DNA from: Moorella sp. E308F
GTDB taxonomy: Bacteria > Bacillota > DSM-521 > Neomoorellales > Neomoorellaceae
Assembly (NCBI RefSeq): GCF_006538365.1
Contig: NZ_BJKN01000001.1
Location: forward strand, 977,424 to 1,041,423
Direction: 5' to 3'
Length of the DNA stretch: 64,000 nt
The notes beneath the pieces were generated by a model. The model made no database searches and was not told the DNA's origin. It saw only the letters and a program-made list of their open reading frames with translations. The position numbers and the translations under genes are program-made. Positions within the stretch are counted from its first letter, which is position 1; each line of letters opens with the position of its first letter. Positions 1,897-14,142 of the stretch are shown here, piece after piece.

Positions 1897-2745
1897 GTGG
1901 TTTTGCGGCGCAAGGAATGGCTTGACTACCTGGGCATTACAACCGGTACCTTGATTACCGCCCTGGGACTGGTGCTTTTCCTGGTTCCCAATAAAATTGC
2001 CGCCGGCGGCGTCAGCGGTCTGGCCACAGTTCTCCATTATGTCTTCGGCTGGCCGGTGGGCCTGACCATGCTGGTCCTCAATATTCCCCTTTTCCTGGCA
2101 GGTCTTAAGGTCTTGGGTTGGAACTTCGGCCTCAAGACCCTCTACGGTACCATTATGCTTTCCGTATTTACCGACGCCCTGGCCCTGTGGCTCCATGCGC
2201 CTACGGCCAATGCCCTGCTGGCCTCTATTTACGGCGGCCTCATGAGCGGTGTGGGGCTGGGGGTTGTTTTCCGCTCCGGCGGGAGCACCGGTGGTACCGA
2301 CCTGGCGGCTCTTCTTTTTGGCCATTTTCTCCATATAAGCTCGGGGGTGGGCTTGCTCCTGGTTGATGCCCTGGTAATCAGCCTGGCGGGCCTCACCTTT
2401 AATGTAGAACTGGCCCTGTATGCCTTCCTGGCCCTGATTTTAACCAGCCGGGCCATTGATGCCATCCAGGAGGGCGGCGGCTATGCCAAGGCAGCGATTA
2501 TTATTTCCGATCATGCCGAAACTATAGCCCGGCAGGTAATGGAAGAGCTGGACCGCGGCGTAACCGGCCTGGCTGGCCGCGGCCTTTATACGGGCAAGGA
2601 ACGGGAAGTTTTACTGGTGGTGGTGCAGCGGTCCGAGGTCAGCCGTCTGAAAAGCCTGGTGGCGGCCATTGACCCGGAGGCTTTTGTCATAGTCAGCAAT
2701 GTCCATGAAGTTCTGGGCGAAGGATTTCGCCAGTGGCGCAGGTAA
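1897..2745 (+). CDS. YitT-family integral membrane protein (DUF161 + DUF2179)
   Basis: At 282 residues this has the family layout. Five or six hydrophobic segments lie in the first 180 residues, including the glycine-rich GVSGLATVL and RSGGSTGGTDLAA motifs that mark YitT. A soluble C-terminal domain of about 80 residues (DUF2179, with GKEREVLLVVV and VSNVHEVLGEGF) follows. The GTG start at 1897 follows an AGGGGGT ribosome site closely; TTG 1903 is an alternative. Transport substrate and role of this family are not established. It stands alone between the ferredoxin and transketolase genes. Confidence 0.88.
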   Translation: MVLRRKEWLDYLGITTGTLITALGLVLFLVPNKIAAGGVSGLATVLHYVFGWPVGLTMLVLNIPLFLAGLKVLGWNFGLKTLYGTIMLSVFTDALALWLHAPTANALLASIYGGLMSGVGLGVVFRSGGSTGGTDLAALLFGHFLHISSGVGLLLVDALVISLAGLTFNVELALYAFLALILTSRAIDAIQEGGGYAKAAIIISDHAETIARQVMEELDRGVTGLAGRGLYTGKEREVLLVVVQRSEVSRLKSLVAAIDPEAFVIVSNVHEVLGEGFRQWRR

Positions 2746-2831
2746 CGGCGCCGGGAGGGGCCCCTCATGGACGGATAGCGTTCCCCCTCCAGCTTACCCC
2801 ATCTCAACTTACGCAGGAGGAATGATAACCC

Positions 2832-3647
2832 TTGCTTAATGATTACCAGGAATTAACAGCCACGGCGCGACGGTTGCGGCGGCATATTATCAGGATGGTA
2901 GGCGCGGCCGGTTCGGGCCATCCGGGAGGGTCGTTATCGGCGGTAGAAATTGTGACGGTCCTCTATTTTAAAATCATGCGCCTGGACCCGGCTCGTCCGG
3001 ACTGGCCGGAGCGGGACCGGTTTGTCCTTTCCAAAGGCCATGCCGCCCCGGTCCTTTACGCCGCCCTGGCGGAAAGGGGCTTTTTCCCGCTTGAGAAGAT
3101 CACCACCCTGCGCCAGCTGGGCAGCCCCCTGCAGGGCCACCCGGACCGTAAGGCCCTACCGGGAGTGGAGGTTTCCACCGGCTCCCTGGGCCACGGTCTG
3201 GCGGTAGCCAACGGCATGGCCCTGGCCAGCCGCCTGGACGGACGGGATTACCACGTCTATGTCCTCCTGGGCGACGGCGAGCTGGAAGAAGGCATGGTCT
3301 GGGAAGGGGCCATGGCCGCCGCCCACTATCGCCTGGACAACCTGACGGCCATTGTCGATCACAATCATCTCCAGATTGACGGCCGGGTAGAAGACGTCAT
3401 GTCGCCGGAGCCGGTGGCCGATAAATTCCGCGCCTTCGGCTGGGAAGCAAAGACCATTGACGGCCACGATTTCAGCCAGATCCTGGCCGCTTTTGAATGG
3501 GCGCGGGAAGTGAAGGGCAAACCGGCGGTAATTATTGCCGAAACCATCAAGGGTAAAGGGGTCAGCTTCATGGAAAACGAAGCCGGGTGGCACGGCAAGG
3601 CCCCCAAGCCCGAAGAAGTAGAAAAAGCCCTGGCCGAGCTGGCCTAA
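2832..3647 (+). CDS. Transketolase, N-terminal (TPP-binding) subunit
   Basis: This 271-residue protein is the thiamine-pyrophosphate half of a split transketolase. It shows GHPGGSLS, the catalytic-region KGHAAPVLYAAL, STGSLGHGL, and the TPP/Mg motif GDGELEEG...AAHYRLDNL. The TTG start at 2832 lies 11 bases after AGGAGG. The C-terminal half is the next gene, 22 bases downstream, so the two form one enzyme of the non-oxidative pentose phosphate pathway, moving two-carbon units between sugar phosphates. Separate subunits are common in Firmicutes and archaea. Confidence 0.95.
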   Translation: MLNDYQELTATARRLRRHIIRMVGAAGSGHPGGSLSAVEIVTVLYFKIMRLDPARPDWPERDRFVLSKGHAAPVLYAALAERGFFPLEKITTLRQLGSPLQGHPDRKALPGVEVSTGSLGHGLAVANGMALASRLDGRDYHVYVLLGDGELEEGMVWEGAMAAAHYRLDNLTAIVDHNHLQIDGRVEDVMSPEPVADKFRAFGWEAKTIDGHDFSQILAAFEWAREVKGKPAVIIAETIKGKGVSFMENEAGWHGKAPKPEEVEKALAELA

Positions 3648-3669
3648 AATTTAGCGGAGGAAGATATAT

Positions 3670-4620
3670 ATGACCAAGATTGCTACGCGGGAAGCCTACG
3701 GCAAGGCCCTGGTGGAACTGGGACGGCAGAACGAACAGGTGGTAGTCCTGGATGCCGATTTATCCAAGTCCACCATGACGGCTTATTTCGCCAAAGAATT
3801 TCCCCAGCGCTTTTTCAATATGGGCATTGCCGAGCAGAGCCTCATGGGCACGGCCGCCGGCCTGGCCTTGAGCGGCAAGATCCCCTTCGCCAGCACCTTT
3901 GCCGTCTTTGCCGCCGGCCGGGCCTACGACCAGGTGCGGAACGGCATCGCCTATCCCAAAGTAAATGTTAAGATCGCCGCCACCCACGCCGGCCTCACCG
4001 TAGGCGAAGACGGGGCCTCCCACCAGGCCATCGAAGACATCGCCCTCATGCGGGCCGTACCCAACATGACGGTCATTGTTCCGGCCGACGGCGAAGAAAC
4101 CAGGCAGGCCGTCTTTGCGGCCGCCGCCCACCAGGGGCCGGTATACCTGCGCCTTGGCCGCCCGGCAATACCGGTTATTTATAACGCGGATTATCAATTC
4201 CAGATCGGCCGCGCTCATACCCTGCGACAGGGGAAGGATGCGGCCATCATCGCCTGCGGCGTCATGGTCCATGAGGCCTTGAAGGCGGCGGAAGAACTGG
4301 CGGCAGCGGGTCTGGAAGTCATGGTCGTCAACATGAGCACCATCAAACCCCTGGACCGGGAGGCTGTCCTGGCGGCGGCGGCCACCGGGGCGGTGGTGAC
4401 GGCCGAAGAACACACCGTCATCGGCGGTCTGGGGAGCGCCGTGGCCGAGGTCCTGGCCACGGAAAAACCCGTTCCCCTGGCCATGGTCGGCATCCGCGAC
4501 ACCTTCGGCGAGTCCGGCAAGCCGGACGAGCTGATGGCAAAGTATGGCCTGACGGCACGAGACATCGCGGCGGCTGTGAAAAGGTTGAAGGGAAGCGCAT
4601 CGACATTAAACCGCCCCTGA
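3670..4620 (+). CDS. Transketolase, C-terminal subunit
   Basis: A 316-residue partner of the preceding gene. It carries the pyrimidine-binding domain (VVVLDADLSKSTMT, FNMGIAEQSLMGTAAGLA) with the conserved Glu that activates TPP, then THAGLTVGEDGASHQAIEDI, and a C-terminal transketolase fold with EEHTVIGGLGSAVAE. A GCGGAGGA ribosome site precedes the ATG. A hairpin terminator overlaps its stop codon, so the two transketolase genes form a closed transcription unit. Confidence 0.95.
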   Translation: MTKIATREAYGKALVELGRQNEQVVVLDADLSKSTMTAYFAKEFPQRFFNMGIAEQSLMGTAAGLALSGKIPFASTFAVFAAGRAYDQVRNGIAYPKVNVKIAATHAGLTVGEDGASHQAIEDIALMRAVPNMTVIVPADGEETRQAVFAAAAHQGPVYLRLGRPAIPVIYNADYQFQIGRAHTLRQGKDAAIIACGVMVHEALKAAEELAAAGLEVMVVNMSTIKPLDREAVLAAAATGAVVTAEEHTVIGGLGSAVAEVLATEKPVPLAMVGIRDTFGESGKPDELMAKYGLTARDIAAAVKRLKGSASTLNRP

Positions 4621-4823: not shown

Positions 4824-6251
4824 CTATTGTGTCTTCTTCTCCTTGTACGCTTTAAGCTTGCGGTACAGGACGGTCCGGTATATACCCAGCCTTTCTGCGG
4901 CCTTACTTATCTTACCCCCGCATTCTTGGAGTACGTATTCGATATACTGTTCTTCAACCTTTTGCAGGACCTCTCTGAGCGTTCCTTCCAACCCCAGGAG
5001 CTTGAAAATCCTGTAGGATGCCAGAGCGGGGGATTCGCCGTGGTAATCGGGACGGGGGGTGGTAACGCCTTCGATAGAGGAGTTGATAACCATGCGCTCG
5101 ATAACATTGCGCAGCTCGCGAACGTTGCCCGGCCAATCGTGGCTCAGGAGGGACTGCAGTCCCTGATAGTCCAACTCACAATCCGCTCCGTATCGGCTGT
5201 TAAACTCTTCGAGAAAAGTAAAGGACAGGGCGACAATATCCTCGGGTCTTTCACGTAGAGGGGGCAGGTGAATGGGAAACACGCTCAACCGATAGTAGAG
5301 GTCGCTTCTGAACTCACCATTGCGTACCATATCCTCTAGGTTTCTGTTAGTAGCGGCGATTACCCGGACGTTTACACTCCGCACCTGGTTACCCCCAACC
5401 CTCCGGACCTCACCGGTTTCGAGGACCCGTAAGAGCTTTCCCTGCAGTCCTATGGGCAGTTCACCGACCTCATCGAGGAACAGGGTGCCTTTATCGGCGC
5501 ATTCAAACAGCCCTGCTTTACCTTCGGGCTTGGCGCCGGTAAAGGCGCCCTTTTCATATCCGAAGAGCTCGGATTCCACCAGGTGTTCCGGTAAAGCGGC
5601 GCAGTTAACGGTGATAAAAGCCTCATTGGCCCGCTTGCTGTGACGATGGATGTATCTTGCCAGTACCTCCTTACCGGTGCCGGTTTCTCCGGTTAAAAGG
5701 ACGATGGTATCGGTCTGAGCAACCCGATAAGCCTTGAGCAGGACCTGCCGCATGACCGGGCTTTCGGCGATTACCGTCAGGGGCTCTTTTGGCCCATGCG
5801 GCAGGCTCATTACGTCCTGCACCTGTCTGGCCCTTTCGCCCGGCTTCTTGCCGAACTTGTCGTCCAAATCAAGGAACTTGCCCGTGGTAAGAATAAGCTT
5901 GACTTCGTTGTTTTCGTCCAGGATAGGCGTGCTGGTGCTGAGAAAGGTTAAGTTCAGGCGGGTTCGGACCAGGCCGCTCACGGGGGCCTTCTTTTGAACG
6001 GCTTCGAGGGCGTAAGAACGATTATAAATTCCCTTATCCACCAGTTCACGGACATTCGCGCCGATCAACTGGTCTAGAGACATGCCCAATGTCAGGGCGG
6101 TAGTTGAGTTGGAGAGCAGTACGGTGCCCGATGGGTCGATAATGAATATCGGGTCCGGCAGTCCTTCGAATACGGCCCGTAGACTGGATTTATTAAGCTC
6201 GATGTGATGACCGTCTTTAGAATCCGAACCGAGTAATTCAGGTAATACCAT
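4824..6251 (-). CDS. Sigma-54-dependent transcriptional activator with N-terminal PAS domain
   Basis: A 475-residue enhancer-binding protein. A PAS sensor spans about residues 24-125 ([18 protein letters not shown]). An AAA+ domain follows, with Walker A GETGTGKE at 188-195, the sigma-54-contacting GAFTGA loop at 235-240 and Walker B TLFLDE at 256-261, then the WPGNVREL segment and a Fis-type helix-turn-helix at the end ([20 protein letters not shown]). There is no receiver domain, so the PAS domain probably senses a ligand directly. Its ribosome site (GAGGT) lies in a half-copy of the palindrome found at 6765. It is the obvious activator of the divergent operon starting at 6904. Confidence 0.95.
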
Positions 6252-6764: not shown

Positions 6765-6790
6765 ATTATGTACCTCAAGAGGTACATAAT
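6765..6790. promoter_or_regulatory. Palindromic activator site (candidate UAS for the PAS/sigma-54 activator)
   Basis: Two perfect 12-bp arms (ATTATGTACCTC and its reverse complement) are separated by AA. The centre lies about 64 bases upstream of the GG of the -24/-12 promoter, a usual distance for enhancer sites of sigma-54 activators. A half-site ATGTACCTC recurs at 6253-6261, at the start of the activator gene. Binding by the encoded activator is inferred from position and symmetry. Confidence 0.7.
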
Positions 6791-6840: not shown

Positions 6841-6856
6841 TGGCATGATTTTTGAA
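6841..6856 (+). promoter_or_regulatory. Sigma-54 (-24/-12) promoter of the CoA-transferase/FixABCX operon
   Basis: TGGCATGATTTTTGAA has the GG-N10-G(A) spacing of RpoN promoters (consensus TGGCAC-N5-TTGCA), with GA in place of the usual GC at -12. It lies 48 bases upstream of the TTG start at 6904, which has the ribosome site AAAGGAGGG at 6890. An RpoN gene (50558) and a matching activator (4824) are both in the window. Confidence 0.65.
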
Positions 6857-6903: not shown

Positions 6904-8475
6904 TTGAGTAAAATCAGAACCGCAGACGAGGTGGCTGCTCTAATTCCGGATGGGGCGACAGTAGCAGCTGCCGCTTTTGGATTGGCGGGCTGGCCGGAGG
7001 AGGTTGCCCGAGCTATTGAAAAGCGTTACCTTGCTACCGGGCATCCTCGTGACCTAACCCTGGTACACGGCTCGGCCGTGGGCGACTGGAGAGAGAAAGG
7101 CACTACCCGCTTAGGCCACGAAGGGTTGGTGAAGAGGTGGATCGGGGCAATCATAGGTTCATCGCCCAACATGTGCAGGTTAGTGGAAGAAAACAAGATC
7201 GAAGCCTATAACCTGCCTCAAGGGGTGATCATCCATCTCTGGCGTGAAATAGCCGCCAAGCGGCCCGGGGTCATCACCAAGGTCGGTCTGGGGACCTTTG
7301 TAGACCCACGAGTGGACGGCGCAAGAATGAACTCCAAAACTACGGAAGACATAGTGAAGGTCGTCGAGTTTGAAGGGGAGGAGTACCTCTTTTATAAGAG
7401 TTTTCCCATCAACGTAGCCTTAATACGGGGAACAGTGGCAGACGAAAACGGCAACCTGACCATGGACAAGGAAGGGATTCTGGTTGAAGGGTTGCCATTG
7501 GCTCAAGCAACTAAGAACAGCGGCGGTATAGTGATCGCTCAAGTAGAACACGTTGCTAAGGCTGGAACCCTCCACCCCAAACAGGTAAAGGTACCAGGTA
7601 TCCTGGTCGACTATATCGTGGTCTGCACTAATCAGGAGTATCACTATCAGACCGAGGGCACCTATTACAACCCTGCCTTTGCAGGGGAAATAAAGGTTCC
7701 CCTGCAGGCGATACCGCCCCTGCCCTTGGACGAGCGCAAGATTGTTGCGCGCCGCGCCGCCATGGAGCTCATCCCGGGCGCGGTGGTAAACCTGGGCGTG
7801 GGCATGCCTTCCGATGTGGCCGCAGTGGTGGCCGAGGAGGAAGCCGTTGACTTGATTACCTTGACTACTGAGGCAGGGAGCATAGGAGGCGTTCCCGCCA
7901 GCCTGCCCCATTTCGGGCACGCCTACAACGCCGAAGCAACCCTTGAGCATCATGCCCAGTTTGATTTCTACGATGGCGGCGGCATTGACGTGGCTTTCCT
8001 GGGCCAGGCCCAGGTAGACGCCGAGGGCAATGTCAATGTCAGCAAGTTCGGCAAGAGGGTCATGGGTTGTGGTGGCTTTATCAATATCAGCCAGAATTCC
8101 AAGAAGGTGATCTTTTGCGGTACTTTTACCGCTGGTGGCCTGAAAGTGGGGATTAAAGACGGCCAACTGATTGTCGAGCAGGAAGGGAAGGCAAGGAAGT
8201 TTGTTTCTCATGTTGACCAGATAACCTTTAGCGGCAAATATGCGCGCAAAACCAAGCAGTATGTCCTTTATATTACTGAGCGTGCCGTATTCAAGTTGGA
8301 AGATGAAGGCCTTACCCTTATCGAGATCGCTCCAAACGTCGACCTGGAGAAAGACATTCTATCTAAGATGGAGTTTACCCCACGCATTGCGCCGAATTTG
8401 AAGAGCATGCCACAGGAGATATTCCTGCCCGAGTGGGGTAAGCTGCGCAGTATACTTGAGGCTAAAAAGAGGTAG
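6904..8475 (+). CDS. Acyl-CoA:carboxylate CoA-transferase, fused alpha-beta (YdiF/Pct type)
   Basis: At 523 residues this is a class I CoA-transferase with both halves in one chain, as in YdiF and propionate CoA-transferase. The second half contains TTEAGSIGGVPA, whose Glu (residue 323) would form the glutamyl-CoA thioester intermediate. GGFINISQNSKKVIFCGTF is the typical following block. It would move CoA from an acyl-CoA such as acetyl-CoA onto an incoming carboxylate without ATP. TTG start after AAAGGAGGG. It is the first gene after the sigma-54 promoter, so it probably activates the substrate for the dehydrogenases that follow. Substrate unknown. Confidence 0.93.
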   Translation: MSKIRTADEVAALIPDGATVAAAAFGLAGWPEEVARAIEKRYLATGHPRDLTLVHGSAVGDWREKGTTRLGHEGLVKRWIGAIIGSSPNMCRLVEENKIEAYNLPQGVIIHLWREIAAKRPGVITKVGLGTFVDPRVDGARMNSKTTEDIVKVVEFEGEEYLFYKSFPINVALIRGTVADENGNLTMDKEGILVEGLPLAQATKNSGGIVIAQVEHVAKAGTLHPKQVKVPGILVDYIVVCTNQEYHYQTEGTYYNPAFAGEIKVPLQAIPPLPLDERKIVARRAAMELIPGAVVNLGVGMPSDVAAVVAEEEAVDLITLTTEAGSIGGVPASLPHFGHAYNAEATLEHHAQFDFYDGGGIDVAFLGQAQVDAEGNVNVSKFGKRVMGCGGFINISQNSKKVIFCGTFTAGGLKVGIKDGQLIVEQEGKARKFVSHVDQITFSGKYARKTKQYVLYITERAVFKLEDEGLTLIEIAPNVDLEKDILSKMEFTPRIAPNLKSMPQEIFLPEWGKLRSILEAKKR

Positions 8476-8482
8476 GTGAACT

Positions 8483-9622
8483 ATGATGATGGATTTCCTC
8501 TTGACCCCGGAACAGCAGAAATATCAGGAGTTAGCCCGTAAGTTTACCCGGGAATATATACTTCCCGTTGCCGACGAGTACGACCGTAAGGGAGAGTTCC
8601 CCTGGCCGATCGTAAAGGCGGTTAAGGAAATAGGGCTTAACTGCATGACGGCTCCGAAGGATTATGGTGGGCCGGGACTGGATTCTGTAACCATATCGGT
8701 TGTTATGGAAGAATTTGCTTACGGCTGTGGCGGTATCGCGACTACCCTGGGTGGAAACGGGTTGAGCTCATATCCGGTGCTCATAGCCGGTACCGAAGAG
8801 CAGAAGAAGCTCTTTTTTGGCATCCTGGTGCCAGGAGGCCTGGGTGCATTTGCCCTTACCGAACCCGGCGCTGGTTCCGATGCAGGCGCTGTTTCTACTG
8901 TAGCCAGGAAGGTTGGGGACGAATACGTAATCAACGGTACCAAATGTTTCATTACCACCGGTGCCATGGCTGACGTGTTCATCGTTTTTGCGTCTACCAA
9001 CCCCTCTCTCAAACATAGGGGTTTGAGCGCGTTCATTGTCGAGCGGGACCGGGAAGGTATCGCCATAGGCCACGAGGAGCATAAGATGGGCATTCGCTCC
9101 TCCAACACGGTGGAAGTACGGTTTAAAGACACGCGCGTACCGGCAAGCCACCTTCTCGGCAAAGAGGGTGACGGCTTCAAGATCGCCATGCAGACTCTGG
9201 ACATGGCCAGGCCCATCGTCGGGTCCATTGCCGTGGGCATAGCCCGTGCCGCTTTGGAAGAATGCATCAATTATGTCAAGACCAGAACCGACGGCGGTAA
9301 GCCCCTGGCGGCAGACCAGGCGATCCAGTTCCGCCTTGCGGATATGGCCATCAAGGTGGAGACGGCAAGGCTGATGGTGCGCAGGGCCCTGGTCCTCAAG
9401 GAGGCAGGCCTGCCGTACTCTAAGGAGTCGGCTATGGCCAAGACCCTGGCGGGTGACGTGGCCATGGAAGTCACGGCAGAAGCCGTAGAGATTATGGGAT
9501 GCTTGGGCTACAGCAAAGATTCCAGGGTCGAGAAGCTGATGCGTGACGCCAAGATTACCCAGATCTATGAGGGCACTAACCAGGTGCAGAGGATAGTTAT
9601 CGCCAACCACCTGCTCAGATAG
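8483..9622 (+). CDS. Acyl-CoA dehydrogenase (YdiO/CaiA-like), catalytically complete
   Basis: A 379-residue FAD enzyme with the standard three-part fold: N-terminal helices, a middle beta domain (GAFALTEPGAGSD, INGTKCFITTG) and C-terminal helices ending in RDAKITQIYEGTNQVQ. The Glu of IYEGT (residue 363) is the usual catalytic base. Three Met codons in a row at 8483-8491 make the exact start uncertain. It follows the CoA-transferase by 7 bases. With FixABCX downstream it could oxidise an acyl-CoA or reduce a 2-enoyl-CoA, as the related CaiA and caffeyl-CoA reductase do. Confidence 0.94.
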   Translation: MMMDFLLTPEQQKYQELARKFTREYILPVADEYDRKGEFPWPIVKAVKEIGLNCMTAPKDYGGPGLDSVTISVVMEEFAYGCGGIATTLGGNGLSSYPVLIAGTEEQKKLFFGILVPGGLGAFALTEPGAGSDAGAVSTVARKVGDEYVINGTKCFITTGAMADVFIVFASTNPSLKHRGLSAFIVERDREGIAIGHEEHKMGIRSSNTVEVRFKDTRVPASHLLGKEGDGFKIAMQTLDMARPIVGSIAVGIARAALEECINYVKTRTDGGKPLAADQAIQFRLADMAIKVETARLMVRRALVLKEAGLPYSKESAMAKTLAGDVAMEVTAEAVEIMGCLGYSKDSRVEKLMRDAKITQIYEGTNQVQRIVIANHLLR

Positions 9623-9668
9623 TGTGTACTGGCCGGGCAGGGCTTGAAGGCCAAAGGAGGTAGTAAAC

Positions 9669-10805
9669 GTGCGATACCCGCTAAGTGAAGAGCACATCCT
9701 CATCCAACAGAATGCCAAAGAGTTTGCCGAAAGGTACGTGGAAGCCGAAGCACAGGCCATCGACCGGGATGGGACGCATCCCTGGGAGCTGGTAAAGAAG
9801 ATGGCCGAGCATGATTTCTTTGGGCTTCCGTTCACCCAGGAGTACGGCGGGGCGGAGGCGGGGTTCCTCAGCTTCGTTCTAGCCGTGGAGCAGATTTCGA
9901 GGGCTAGCGCGTCTGTAGGCGCCATCCTCGTCAATCATAGCGTTGCGACCTACGCCATATTTCGCTGGGGAACAGCCGGACAGAAAGAATCGTTTCTTCC
10001 GGCCATGTGCAGTGGGGAAAAACTTGGTGCCTTCGCCCTCTACGAGTCCGGTGCTGCTCCGGGCTGCGGTGAGCGCCGGTTGACGGCGCGCAAGACTGCG
10101 GACGGCTTTGTTCTAGAGGGAACAAAGTACTTCGTAGCCAACGGTGGAGTGGCCGACTACTACGTGGTTGTAGCCCAGACCTTATCCGAGAAGGGCCCCG
10201 CAGGCATGAGCGCTTTTGTTGTGGACGGGAAAGCACCCGGTTTGCGGGTCGTCCGGCAGGTGGAAACCATGGGCTTGAAAGGATGCCAAACGGCAGAGAT
10301 CGCCTTTGAGGGCGTTATGGTAACACCAGACCGGCTCCTCGGACCAGAGAATGGGGCTGCGGAGATGGTCAAGGAAATCCTTGCCATCAAGAGAATTGCG
10401 GCAGGGGCTCAGGCAGCCGGTATCATGGAAGCCGCCCTATCTGAGTCGGTTAAGTACACCGGGCAGCGCGTCCAGTTCGGGCAGCCCATCGGCAGGTTCC
10501 CGGCCATCCAGAAGATGATAGCCGATATGGCGACAAACCTGAATTTGGTGCGGCTGGCCGTGTACAGCACCGCCGAACTGGTGGACAAGGGCGAGCCTTT
10601 TGAGGCGGAGGCAGCAATGGTGCATATGCTCGCCGCCAAAGTGGGTCAGGCCGCCAGCATCGATGCCATTCAGGTCCACGGTGGGTACGGTTACAGCCAG
10701 GAACTTCCGGTAGAGAGGTTTTTCCGGGATGTCAAAGGGGTGTTAATTTCAGACACCCTTATGGAACAGCCGGAGCGTATCGTGGCCGGAAGCGTCATGA
10801 TTTAA
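9669..10805 (+). CDS. Acyl-CoA dehydrogenase paralogue lacking the usual catalytic Glu
   Basis: A 378-residue acyl-CoA dehydrogenase fold with GAFALYESGAAPG, LEGTKYFVANGG and a C-terminal HGGYGYSQELPVERFFRD. Where the first dehydrogenase has IYEGT this one has ISDTL, so the catalytic Glu is replaced by Asp362. At the alternative position used by isovaleryl-CoA dehydrogenase, helix G carries Lys241 rather than Glu. It may have changed chemistry, a different substrate or a structural role beside the first enzyme. GTG start after AAAGGAGG at 9654. It belongs to the same operon. Confidence 0.9.
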   Translation: MRYPLSEEHILIQQNAKEFAERYVEAEAQAIDRDGTHPWELVKKMAEHDFFGLPFTQEYGGAEAGFLSFVLAVEQISRASASVGAILVNHSVATYAIFRWGTAGQKESFLPAMCSGEKLGAFALYESGAAPGCGERRLTARKTADGFVLEGTKYFVANGGVADYYVVVAQTLSEKGPAGMSAFVVDGKAPGLRVVRQVETMGLKGCQTAEIAFEGVMVTPDRLLGPENGAAEMVKEILAIKRIAAGAQAAGIMEAALSESVKYTGQRVQFGQPIGRFPAIQKMIADMATNLNLVRLAVYSTAELVDKGEPFEAEAAMVHMLAAKVGQAASIDAIQVHGGYGYSQELPVERFFRDVKGVLISDTLMEQPERIVAGSVMI

Positions 10806-10834
10806 GGTAAAGTCGTTATTTTGGAGGGAATAAC

Positions 10835-11611
10835 ATGGCCAATGTTATTGTCTGTTACAAGTGGGTAATCGATGAGAAAGATATTCGCATGAACCCGGAT
10901 CGCAGTGTCGATACCAGCAGAGCTCAGCGCAAGATCAGTGAATATGACAAGAACGCTATAGAGGCGGGTATAAGAGCGGCGGCCAAACTTGGAGCCAGTC
11001 CGGTGGGCTTGACCTTTGGGGGGACCGAAGCCAAGCAGTCCTTGAAGGATGCTCTGTCTCGGGGCCTTGAGGCCGTGTACTGGATCGGTCACCCGGCAGC
11101 TGGTACGGCCGACGGGCTGTTGACGGCCAGAGTCCTGGCGGCTGCCGCTGAAAAAATTGGCGACTACAGCTTGATCGTGTGCGGTGAGGGCGCGAGCGAT
11201 ACTTACGCCCGTCAGGTCGGTCCGCGCCTGGGCGCGTTGCTGGACTTGCCGGTGGTTACGGCGGTGTGCGATATGGAGATAGACGGCGAACAATTGATAG
11301 CAACGCGCAAGCTTGAGGATTGCATAGAAAAGGTAAAGGTTAGCCTGCCGGCAGTGATAAGCGTTCTACCCGAGATCAACGAAGCTCCGGTTCCCACCTT
11401 AAAAGCGGTCCTGGCTGCCGGCAAAAAGCCATCCCAGGAGTTTACACTCCAAAGCCTGGGCCTGAAAGAGGAGGAACTACAGCCAGGGACGAGCGTGACC
11501 GGTGTACTTGCCTACGTAATGGACCGCAAGAACGTCATCTTGAAAGATGGAGACGTTGCAACCAGGGTTAAGGAATTTGTTACCTACCTCAAGAAGGAAG
11601 GGGTTATCTAA
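10835..11611 (+). CDS. fixA: Electron transfer flavoprotein beta subunit, FixA type
   Basis: A 258-residue EtfB. The N-terminus (VIVCYKWVIDEKDIRMNPD) and the segments ISEYDKNAIEAG, LSRGLEAVYWIG and CGEGASDTYARQVGPRLG follow FixA/YdiQ rather than the housekeeping EtfB pattern. FixA-type subunits bind AMP or FAD at the interface with FixB, and this family includes electron-bifurcating ETFs. ATG start after TTGGAGGGA. The alpha subunit begins two bases after its stop, so the two are translationally linked. Confidence 0.93.
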   Translation: MANVIVCYKWVIDEKDIRMNPDRSVDTSRAQRKISEYDKNAIEAGIRAAAKLGASPVGLTFGGTEAKQSLKDALSRGLEAVYWIGHPAAGTADGLLTARVLAAAAEKIGDYSLIVCGEGASDTYARQVGPRLGALLDLPVVTAVCDMEIDGEQLIATRKLEDCIEKVKVSLPAVISVLPEINEAPVPTLKAVLAAGKKPSQEFTLQSLGLKEEELQPGTSVTGVLAYVMDRKNVILKDGDVATRVKEFVTYLKKEGVI

Positions 11612-11612
11612 C

Positions 11613-12533
11613 ATGGCGGGAACCTTTGTGGTTTATTCCGATAAGACTGCGATAGCAATTGAGCTTATAGGATTCTGCCGCGGTTCGGGTAAGAGAGCTG
11701 TAGCTCTGGCCTTCGATGCGGCTGCGGCGCAGGAATACGCTGCCCGGGGTGCCGAAAGGGTGCTATTGATCGAATGCGGGCAAAACCTTCCGGAAGCTTA
11801 CGCGAAGGCGGTAGCCGGCGTTCTTGAACGGGAAGGGGCTGAAGGCTTTATTGTAGGCAGCACTGTCAGGGGTCGGGAGATGGCGGCTAGAGTGGCCGGC
11901 TACCTCAAATGGCCCCTCGTCAGTGATGTCTCGAAGTTGGTGTGCGAGGAAAAGGAGCTGGTAACCGAACGACCTGCCTATGGTGGAGCCGTGGTGCAGC
12001 AGGAGAGAGTTAAGTTACCGGCTGTCGTCACCGTACCTGCTGGCAAATTTGAGCCGGCAGCTACCTCCGGAGCAGGCGCGGAAGTGGTAACCCTTGAAGC
12101 GCAGCCGGATGAGCGGACCGTTCTTCTAGAGCGCGCATCGGTGGAAAAACAGGGCGCCGACCTCGGTAGTGCGGAAAAGATTGTGTGCGCTGGCATGGGG
12201 TTCGCAAAGAAGGAAGACCTGAAGCTGGCTTTTGACCTGGCAGCAGTTATCGGTGCGGAAGTCGGTTGCTCCAGGAGTGTAGCCGAAGAGCGCAATTGGC
12301 TGCCGACGGACGTATACATCGGCATTTCCGGGGCAACGGTGAAACCGCGTTTGTATCTGTCCATAGGCGTGTCCGGCCAGGTTCAGCACGTCGTGGGTAT
12401 CCGCGACTCCCGTGTCATTGCTGCCATCGACCTTAACGAAAACGCACCGATATTTAAGGCTGCAGACTACGGTATCGTCGGTGATCTGTATGAAGTAGTT
12501 CCTGCTCTGATTGAAGCACTTAAGAATTGCTGA
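11613..12533 (+). CDS. fixB: Electron transfer flavoprotein alpha subunit, FixB type
   Basis: A 306-residue EtfA. The C-terminal FAD domain is clear: AEVGCSRSVAEERNW, YIGISGATVKPRLYLSIG, SGQVQHVVG and ENAPIFKAADYGIVGD, all very close to E. coli FixB/YdiR. The ATG at 11613 is preferred over an upstream in-frame start at 11547, which would lie inside fixA; AAGGAAGGGG precedes 11613. With FixA it carries electrons between the dehydrogenases and FixCX. Confidence 0.94.
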   Translation: MAGTFVVYSDKTAIAIELIGFCRGSGKRAVALAFDAAAAQEYAARGAERVLLIECGQNLPEAYAKAVAGVLEREGAEGFIVGSTVRGREMAARVAGYLKWPLVSDVSKLVCEEKELVTERPAYGGAVVQQERVKLPAVVTVPAGKFEPAATSGAGAEVVTLEAQPDERTVLLERASVEKQGADLGSAEKIVCAGMGFAKKEDLKLAFDLAAVIGAEVGCSRSVAEERNWLPTDVYIGISGATVKPRLYLSIGVSGQVQHVVGIRDSRVIAAIDLNENAPIFKAADYGIVGDLYEVVPALIEALKNC

Positions 12534-12556: not shown

Positions 12557-13849
12557 TTGAGCAGTGCTGAAAAATTTGATGCCATAGTCGTAGGCGCAGG
12601 ACCGGCAGGCAGTGCCTGCGCTTACGTTCTGGCCCGTGAGGGCAAGGCGGTACTCCTGGTGGAGCGTGGGGATGCGGCCGGCGCCAAGAACGTTAGTGGC
12701 GGCAGGCTGTATGGTCACGCACTGAAGGAGTTGGGAGAAGAATTTGATGTAACTGGTGGGGTGGAGCGTAAGGTAACCCGCGAAGAGATTATGGTCATGT
12801 CAGGTGACCGCTCCGTAAACCTATCCTACCAGGATCCTTCATTCAATCGTGAAGGAGCTTCTCATCCAAATTCGTACACTGTCCTGCGGGCCACCCTCGA
12901 TGGTTGGATGGCCTCTAAAGCGGAAGAGGCAGGAGCTATTCTGGCTTGTGGTATTAGAGTGGACGACGTGCTCGAGGAAAACGGCCGGGTAGTGGGCGTC
13001 AGGGCCGGAGAGGACGAGGTTTACGCAGACGTAGTTGTGGCAGCGGATGGGGTCAATTCTCTTCTGGCCCAGAAGGCTGGGCTAATTGATGATATCCCCG
13101 CCCACAACGTTGCGGTAGGGGTCAAAGAGGTAATTGCGCTACCGCCGAACGTTATAAAAGAGCGTTTTCGGGTCTGCGAGGATGAGGGAGCTGCCCTGTT
13201 GATCCTCGGCTGTACCGGAGGGGCTAAGGGAGGAGCCTTCCTTTATACCAACAGGGAAAGCGTATCATTAGGGTGCGTAGCTTCCCCCGAAGATGTGGCC
13301 CGCAAGGGTAAGCCCGTCCACCGGCTGCTGCAGGAGCTCAAAATGCACCCTGCCGTATATCCGCTTATCGAAGGCGGCGAGACGGTTGAGTACTCTGCGC
13401 ACCTGGTTAGCGAAGCCGGCATCCGCGGGGTTCCCGGTAAACTTTCTCGCACCGGCATGCTGCTGATAGGAGACAGCGCCGGTTTCGTCATCAACCTCGG
13501 TTACACTATCAGGGGCATGGACCTGGCCATATTGAGCGGTATTGCCGCTGCCAGGGCGGTTTTATCTGAGGCCGACCCGGCCAGAGTGGGCGATGCTTAT
13601 GTCTCGGAGTTAGAGAAGCTAAAGGTCCTGCCGGCCATGAGGGCCGTGCGAGGCTACGTGGACCTGCTTGACATACCGCGCCTGTATGAACGATACCCGC
13701 AGATGGCGGTAGAGCTTTTTATGCGCTTGTTCGCAGTAGACGGTGAAGTGCCTCCGCGCTTGCTGGAGGTGGTTAAAGGTACCCTCCGTACGGCTAACCT
13801 GAGCTTATGGCAACTTCTAAAGGATGTCTACAGGGGGATCAGGATCTGA
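12557..13849 (+). CDS. fixC: FixC-type flavoprotein (ETF:quinone oxidoreductase-like)
   Basis: A 430-residue FAD oxidoreductase starting with a Rossmann fold (DAIVVGAGPAGSACAYVLAREG) and containing ADGVNSLLA and the second FAD motif GMLLIGDSAGFVINLGYTIRG typical of FixC/YdiS. The TTG at 12557 has GGGGAG 8 bases upstream; an in-frame start at 12527 would overlap fixB. FixC with FixX would accept electrons from FixAB and pass them to a membrane quinone or to ferredoxin. The stop overlaps the fixX start by one base. Confidence 0.93.
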   Translation: MSSAEKFDAIVVGAGPAGSACAYVLAREGKAVLLVERGDAAGAKNVSGGRLYGHALKELGEEFDVTGGVERKVTREEIMVMSGDRSVNLSYQDPSFNREGASHPNSYTVLRATLDGWMASKAEEAGAILACGIRVDDVLEENGRVVGVRAGEDEVYADVVVAADGVNSLLAQKAGLIDDIPAHNVAVGVKEVIALPPNVIKERFRVCEDEGAALLILGCTGGAKGGAFLYTNRESVSLGCVASPEDVARKGKPVHRLLQELKMHPAVYPLIEGGETVEYSAHLVSEAGIRGVPGKLSRTGMLLIGDSAGFVINLGYTIRGMDLAILSGIAAARAVLSEADPARVGDAYVSELEKLKVLPAMRAVRGYVDLLDIPRLYERYPQMAVELFMRLFAVDGEVPPRLLEVVKGTLRTANLSLWQLLKDVYRGIRI

Positions 13850-14142
13850 TGTCTATTCGTGCCATGGATACTCCTGAACTGCTAAGCATAAACAAGTTTA
13901 ACGTGGATGAAAAAGAGCCTCACATAAGGCTTGATAAGTCCAAGTGCAGGACGTGTCAGGATAAGCCTTGCCTGGTGGTATGTCCTGCAGGCCTCTATCG
14001 GCTAGAGCAAGAGGGGGAGGTAAGCTTCGATCACGCAGGCTGCCTTGAGTGCGGTACGTGCCGGGTCATGTGCAAAAATAAGGGGATCGCGAGCTGGAAC
14101 TACCCCAGGGCTACTTTCGGGGTACAGTATAGATTTGGTTAA
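13849..14142 (+). CDS. fixX: FixX ferredoxin-like protein
   Basis: A 97-residue iron-sulfur protein with CRTCQDKPCLVVCPAGLY and CLECGTCRVMC, the FixX/YdiT pattern. The ATG overlaps the fixC TGA (TGATG) with GGGGGAT just upstream, which is coupled translation. FixX works as the electron relay of FixC. This closes a complete fixABCX set inside the operon. It is followed by 127 bases without a gene before the transporter. Confidence 0.93.
   Translation: MSIRAMDTPELLSINKFNVDEKEPHIRLDKSKCRTCQDKPCLVVCPAGLYRLEQEGEVSFDHAGCLECGTCRVMCKNKGIASWNYPRATFGVQYRFG

Follow-up and report, generated by a model that had tools for sequence, protein, structure and literature searches.

The two adjacent acyl-CoA dehydrogenase (ACAD) genes, A1 and A2, found in the 64,000-nucleotide stretch of Moorella sp. 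E308F DNA analysed here (the window) probably encode the alpha and beta subunits of one obligate α2β2 ACAD, in which each A1:A2 dimer would share a single active site and a single FAD. This reading draws on residue states, conservation, synteny, co-occurrence and predicted fold, from which we infer the oligomer, the FAD stoichiometry and the electron path. A preliminary description of the window had pointed to an aspartate in A2 at the place of the catalytic glutamate. Judged from sequence, Asp362 is the smaller part of the change, and the larger feature is the loss of the predicted flavin site of A2 itself, which that description had missed.

The pair lies within an operon of seven genes, listed here in 5′ to 3′ order:

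6904 to 8475, plus strand: CoA-transferase, 523 amino acids, first gene of the operon (Pfam CoA_trans; NCBIfam FadX 505 bits, cut-off 750)
8483 to 9622, plus strand: A1, putative catalytic acyl-CoA dehydrogenase, alpha-like (Pfam, FAD-residue mapping)
9669 to 10805, plus strand: A2, acyl-CoA dehydrogenase-like, beta-like, 378 amino acids (Pfam, alignment, FAD-residue mapping)
10835 to 11611, plus strand: EtfB, FixA-like (below curated cut-offs; 73% in L062, 71% in L063)
11610 to 12533, plus strand: EtfA, FixB-like (below curated cut-offs; 66% in L062, 63% in L063)
12563 to 13849, plus strand: FixC-like FAD-dependent oxidoreductase (below curated cut-offs; 74% in L062, 69% in L063)
13849 to 14142, plus strand: FixX-like ferredoxin (below curated cut-offs; 76% in L062, 78% in L063)

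A1 and A2 are both full-length ACADs with N-terminal, middle and C-terminal domains (Pfam PF02771, PF02770 and PF00441) and share ∼31% identity. A2 starts with GTG, with a good ribosome-binding sequence (AAAGGAGG) just 5′ of it. The two genes, 46 bases apart in the window, are adjacent in all three genomes that carry them (our own, G003 of the same genus and G016 of the same family), and all three share one gene order for the whole operon, CoA-transferase through FixX. The CoA-transferase is kept 5′ of the ACAD pair in loci L062 (85%) and L063 (78%).

Excerpts of a study of human short-chain acyl-CoA dehydrogenase (SCAD) describe an FAD contacted by one monomer through S155, S161 and T187 and by its neighbour through R297, Q365 and G369, and report that the Q365H substitution prevented tetramer formation during purification (PMC13027082). 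In SCAD numbering, we therefore used S155, S161 and T187 as the signature of a subunit's own site and R297, Q365 and G369 as that of its cross-subunit contribution, to which we added F300, the neighbouring and nearly invariant Phe of RxxF (74/78 controls). The FAD-contact positions were mapped on 84 sequences. The residues of A2 discussed below are:

10041 to 10076, plus strand: degraded flavin motif YESGAAPGCGER, codons 125–136 (TEPGAGSD in A1)
10389 to 10391, plus strand: Lys241, helix-G site of the alternative base
10467 to 10478, plus strand: R267–F270 (RVQF), retained cross-subunit side (SCAD R297 and F300)
10671 to 10685, plus strand: Q335–G339 (QVHGG), retained cross-subunit FAD contacts (SCAD Q365 and G369)
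10752 to 10754, plus strand: Asp362, catalytic Glu position

At its own site A2 has Tyr for S155, P/V/P for S161 and A/A/G for T187 in the three orthologues, none of which keeps the site (0/3), and the flavin-binding motif reads ALYESGAAPGCG in A2 versus ALTEPGAGSDAG in A1. Its cross-subunit R297, Q365 and G369 are R, Q and G in 3/3 orthologues. A1 is the mirror image: its own site (T, S and T; T126, S132 and T158) and the base Glu363 are intact in 3/3, while Q365 is replaced by E/A/E, G369 by C/A/A and F300 by Gly (E336, C340 and G271 in the window). Each subunit has lost what its partner kept, except that A1 keeps Arg268 (SCAD R297), as homotetramers do, and A2 keeps the own-site positions F122, L124 and E366 (SCAD F152, L154 and E396). 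The homotetrameric SCAD pattern, in which every subunit carries the base and both its own and the cross-subunit FAD residues, is found in neither protein. The catalytic Glu is present in one subunit only, as in α2β2 enzymes, and the pair carries the sequence signature of a flavin-ring site in alpha only with ADP-side contacts from beta.

In the assembled enzyme, A1 would supply the base Glu363 and bind both substrate and flavin ring, but would no longer be able to hold the adenosine end of its own FAD well. Arg267, Phe270, Gln335 and Gly339 of A2 would reach across the dimer interface and hold the adenosine-pyrophosphate end of the FAD of A1, the active site of A2 being vestigial, with Asp362 and the altered TEPGAGSD loop as parts of the vestige. 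Two A1:A2 dimers would form the tetramer, with one FAD per dimer. Glu363 of A1 would take the alpha proton, the hydride would pass to FAD, and the electrons would leave through the co-encoded EtfAB to FixCX.

The signature was compared with 78 control ACADs, which are homologues retrieved with A2 or A1 as query and, being in part closely related, are not independent; open reading frames of <250 amino acids and matches of <300 residues were dropped before counting and contained-core sequences were merged. All three own-site residues are kept in 77/78. The sole exception, an L038 protein, has its best PDB matches in 6wy8_A (Tcur3481) and 4x28_D, each of them the second chain of a known two-subunit ACAD; the PDB record of 4x28 names only acyl-CoA dehydrogenase, and we take this entry to be ChsE4–ChsE5. 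Q365 is lost in five controls (L075, L050, L054 and two L038 proteins) and jointly with F300 in three (L050, L054 and one L038 protein), of which L054 and the L038 protein have 4x28_A as best PDB match. L050 is not placed as an alpha subunit despite its joint loss, and its C-terminal part aligns poorly. The controls that break the rule, except L050 and L075, are thus, as judged from their matches, members of the known two-subunit class. Neither G369 to Ala (6/78) nor F300 to Gly (1/78), both seen in ordinary enzymes, is diagnostic alone. Four further tandem ACAD pairs (L010, L011, L086 and L087) were rejected as a second natural pair among the relatives, since all tested FAD residues are kept in both members; tandem arrangement alone therefore does not bring the mirror pattern.

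Several of these loci merit mention in their own right. The L038 contig, from a deltaproteobacterial MAG, carries two adjacent ACAD genes at 9176–11613 on the minus strand, one alpha-type with 4x28_A as best PDB match and one beta-type with 6wy8_A. The first member of the L087 pair (2643–3791, plus strand) lacks Glu at both base sites, with Gly at the usual one and Val in helix G, and has all tested FAD residues intact. The ACAD of genome G021 (L075 1375–2655; L088 5502–6782, plus strand) has KxxGS for QxxGG and a sigma-54-type regulator 5′ of it; no partner was seen in L088/L075, where the contig ends 221 bases past the frame, and a partner could lie beyond that end.

Alignment in four MAFFT modes (auto, L-INS-i, E-INS-i and G-INS-i) aligns Asp362 with Glu363 of A1 and puts Lys241 at the helix-G position of the alternative base. 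This bears out what the preliminary description had read by eye, namely Asp opposite the Glu of IYEGT and Lys at the site of the alternative Glu. The Lys is not conserved (Lys, Gly and Ala across the three orthologues); the helix-G Glu is absent from A2 in 3/3, and Glu363 is present in A1 in 3/3. Another Glu placed as base was what that description said would speak against it, and here the Glu nearest to Asp362 is E366, four residues on and present in all three orthologues. E366 occupies the position of SCAD E396 (E392+4), described as an FAD contact in the human enzyme in the excerpts of PMC13027082, and this position is Glu or Gln in 82/84 aligned ACADs; E366 is therefore a family position rather than a relocated base, and the match anchors the alignment.

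Close orthologues of A2 outside our own genome were found only in G003 (69%) and G016 (61%), in a search that covered 22 class genomes and an overlapping sample of 398 from the phylum; the next matches have at most 43% identity, and those examined are ordinary dehydrogenases. A1 has orthologues of 85% in the same two genomes and a next match of 52% among the 22 class genomes. A1 and A2 co-occur in the same 3/22 class genomes, and the other 19 have a close orthologue of neither. The observations on conservation concern three orthologous pairs, all that are known.

An AF2 model of A2 shows a confident ACAD fold (mean pLDDT 92) that superposes on 4l1f over 377 residues (Z 56, 1.6 Å); 4l1f, 1buc and 5ol2 are the closest structures among the matches listed. 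4x28 and 6wy8 were not among the best 50 matches of A2 from each of Foldseek and VIA-align, which excludes nothing. Residues 127–135, the altered flavin loop, are the sole stretch of A2 with pLDDT <50, against 83 and 79 for the blocks there in A1; pLDDT is low at 361–370 in both models and does not discriminate between them. The input alignments held 20 sequences each. Across the three A2 orthologues, the most conserved bin is 301–320 (18/20 identical columns), bin 121–140, where the altered flavin motif lies, is of average conservation (12/20), and the middle domain at 161–240 (6–7/20 per bin) and the C-terminal tail (5/18) are the least conserved. The least conserved bin of A1 is 261–280 (11/20), which contains one of the lost cross-subunit sites. 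A2 is under purifying selection, with a rough NG86 dN/dS of 0.08–0.11 (dS >1.8 or undefined, that is, saturated).

The preliminary description had offered two readings of Asp362, as a slower base or as a mark of a regulatory subunit in a mixed oligomer with the neighbour. In line with the former, A2 could be an active dehydrogenase that works on a different substrate with Asp362 as a weaker base. Asp362 is invariant in 3/3 orthologues (codons GAC, GAC and GAT), although the pair model requires nothing of it, and the solved entry 2r0m is, by its title, a Glu370Asp mutant of glutaryl-CoA dehydrogenase. Moreover, in 8/78 controls the base position is Asp and helix G has no Glu, with all tested FAD residues intact, so that Asp at this position alone is no proof of lost function. 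A2, unlike these eight, has lost all three tested own-site residues, and its model is unsure exactly at the flavin loop. Given the loss of residues that would contact its own FAD at the isoalloxazine, ribityl and pyrophosphate, we regard an active A2 with a slower base as very unlikely. The eight controls, all proteobacterial ACADs with IGDGSS at the base site, possibly form a natural Asp-base group (L040 8992–10158, L044 8950–10155, L045 448–1677, L046 430–1608, L047 264–1439, L049 359–1546, L051 257–1495 and L053 8986–10161).

The mixed oligomer fares better, being consistent with the complementary loss of FAD contacts in 3/3 pairs and the co-occurrence in 3/22 genomes; A2, however, looks structural, and a cofactor-holding beta subunit appears likelier than a regulatory one. 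An ordinary A1 homotetramer, with A2 as a separate protein that regulates or acts as a scaffold, for example for EtfAB or FixC, would agree with the retained Arg268 of A1, but A1 has lost both Q365 and F300 in 3/3 orthologues, 75/78 controls do not lose both, and A2 keeps exactly these residues, which makes such a separation of the two proteins improbable. The degraded active site of A2, and its divergence (61–69% versus 85% for A1), could also be expected of a decaying duplicate without function. This we consider the most improbable explanation: A2 has an open frame, a ribosome-binding site in the window, and synteny and interface residues that are kept in three genomes, its dN/dS is about 0.1, and its divergence is close to that of EtfA (63–66%), so that it is not decaying faster than EtfA. 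An obligate A1/A2 enzyme remains our preferred explanation.

Upstream of the operon, between a divergent sigma-54-type regulator (4824–6251, minus strand) and the CoA-transferase, lies a perfect 12-base palindrome, ATTATGTACCTC AA GAGGTACATAAT (6765–6790), which is unique in the window even with up to 3 mismatches allowed. Matches to the sigma-54 promoter pattern gave no signal (13 found, 8.7 expected), and a weak −24/−12-like site near the CoA-transferase (6841–6856) does not exceed chance expectation. Near the operon stand genes that resemble aldehyde ferredoxin oxidoreductase but score below family cut-offs, in L062 (13003–14931, minus strand) and L063 (2252–4135, plus strand), the latter also with an iron-type alcohol dehydrogenase-like gene, again below its family cut-off; the oxidoreductase-like neighbours in G003 and G016 may hint, as to the substrate, at an acid made from an aldehyde. 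An MFS transporter of the window had no match in G003 or G016, in a search run without a positive control.

The trees, which were quick and include several very long rows, place A1 among ordinary dehydrogenases, nearest to L067 (52%), and put A2 closest to proteins that resemble butyryl-CoA dehydrogenase, L076 among them. The groups for the AU tests were chosen with the first tree or the pattern already in view, which makes the p-values optimistic. A tandem duplication from A1 to A2, as a single A1 + A2 clade, was rejected (p 0.006), as was A1 grouped with two alpha-type rows (p 0.005) or with eight PimC-like rows (p about 1e-50); A2 grouped with the beta-type L038 row (one very long row) was not rejected (p 0.475), nor was A2 with eight PimD-like rows (p 0.187). 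The PimC/PimD tree had 51 rows, without L050 and the L038 beta row. These topologies suggest that the change in the catalytic subunit A1 looks independent of the known alpha lineages and that A2 is possibly of old beta ancestry. On balance, we lean slightly towards a heterotetrameric ACAD of new origin, built within an Etf/Fix operon from two separate ordinary dehydrogenases of the butyryl-CoA type, with the active site split convergently between two genes and the A1-type subunit losing the same Gln of QxxGG. This Gln is Glu in 2/3 A1 orthologues, as it is in most steroid-type and PimC-like alphas here.

An odd single residue becomes, in this way, a testable division of labour. If the proposal is true, the pair adds a case, beyond the catabolism of steroids and dicarboxylates, of homomeric enzymes turned into an obligate heteromer as each lost, in mirror image, residues of the interface or the active site. 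In our positive controls the signature (own S155, S161 and T187; cross-subunit R297, Q365 and G369, plus F300) separated alpha from beta subunits, and it could serve to detect further pairs among genes whose present annotation is that of two acyl-CoA dehydrogenases. A limited literature search found no report of a two-subunit ACAD in anaerobic Etf/Fix operons, and a search for the IpdE2 family gave no match above cut-off in our own genome and 14 control genomes.

The SCAD-type enzymes (1buc, 4l1f, 5ol2 and 5lnx; butyryl- and short-chain ACADs) rank among the nearest to A2 in sequence and fold and are near A1 in sequence. According to the excerpts of PMC13027082, SCAD has a base and a complete FAD site in each subunit, and A2 is without either. 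Among family models, acryloyl-CoA reductase AcrC rather than PimD gives A2 its highest score (320 bits, under the cut-off, versus 135 bits). A single-ACAD operon in G003 (L089) has an ACAD followed by EtfB, EtfA and FixC, like the A1/A2 operon, but its one ACAD is intact at all tested positions.

A closer parallel to the mirror pattern is given by PimC/PimD-like neighbour pairs, in which it occurs at 8/8 loci (L090–L097, the best TIGR03203 matches of 8/9 given genomes, all below the family cut-off; 25 of the 78 controls served as alignment background). The PimD-like members have lost at least two of the three own-site residues (all three in seven) and keep R, F, Q and G, and the PimC-like members keep the own site and the helix-G Glu and have lost the Gln. 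A heterotetramer is considered possible for PimCD-like proteins in one report (PMC12543098). A1 and A2 themselves fall far short of the PimC (TIGR03204; A1 91 of 624 bits) and PimD (TIGR03203; A2 135 of 653 bits) cut-offs.

In α2β2 ACADs, as far as excerpts of two reports describe them, one subunit carries the base and the flavin-ring site and the other the ADP-side contacts (PMC11153573, PMC8399759), the Glu being present in only one subunit of each heterodimer and FAD lying at the dimer interface; the enzyme of the actinobacterium Thermomonospora curvata is of this form (PMC8399759). Like A1/A2, the enzymes of steroid degraders (ChsE4–ChsE5; Tcur3483–Tcur3481, PDB 6wy8) consist of two ACAD-like subunits, and their alpha chain, as does A1, loses the Gln and Gly of QxxGG (EVLGT in 4x28_A and GILGA in Tcur3483, to which EIMGC of A1 is close). 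A1 differs from the steroid-type alphas in that its base is, by alignment, the Glu of IYEGT rather than the helix-G Glu, and the A1/A2 pair differs from the steroid-type enzymes in being set among Etf/Fix genes.
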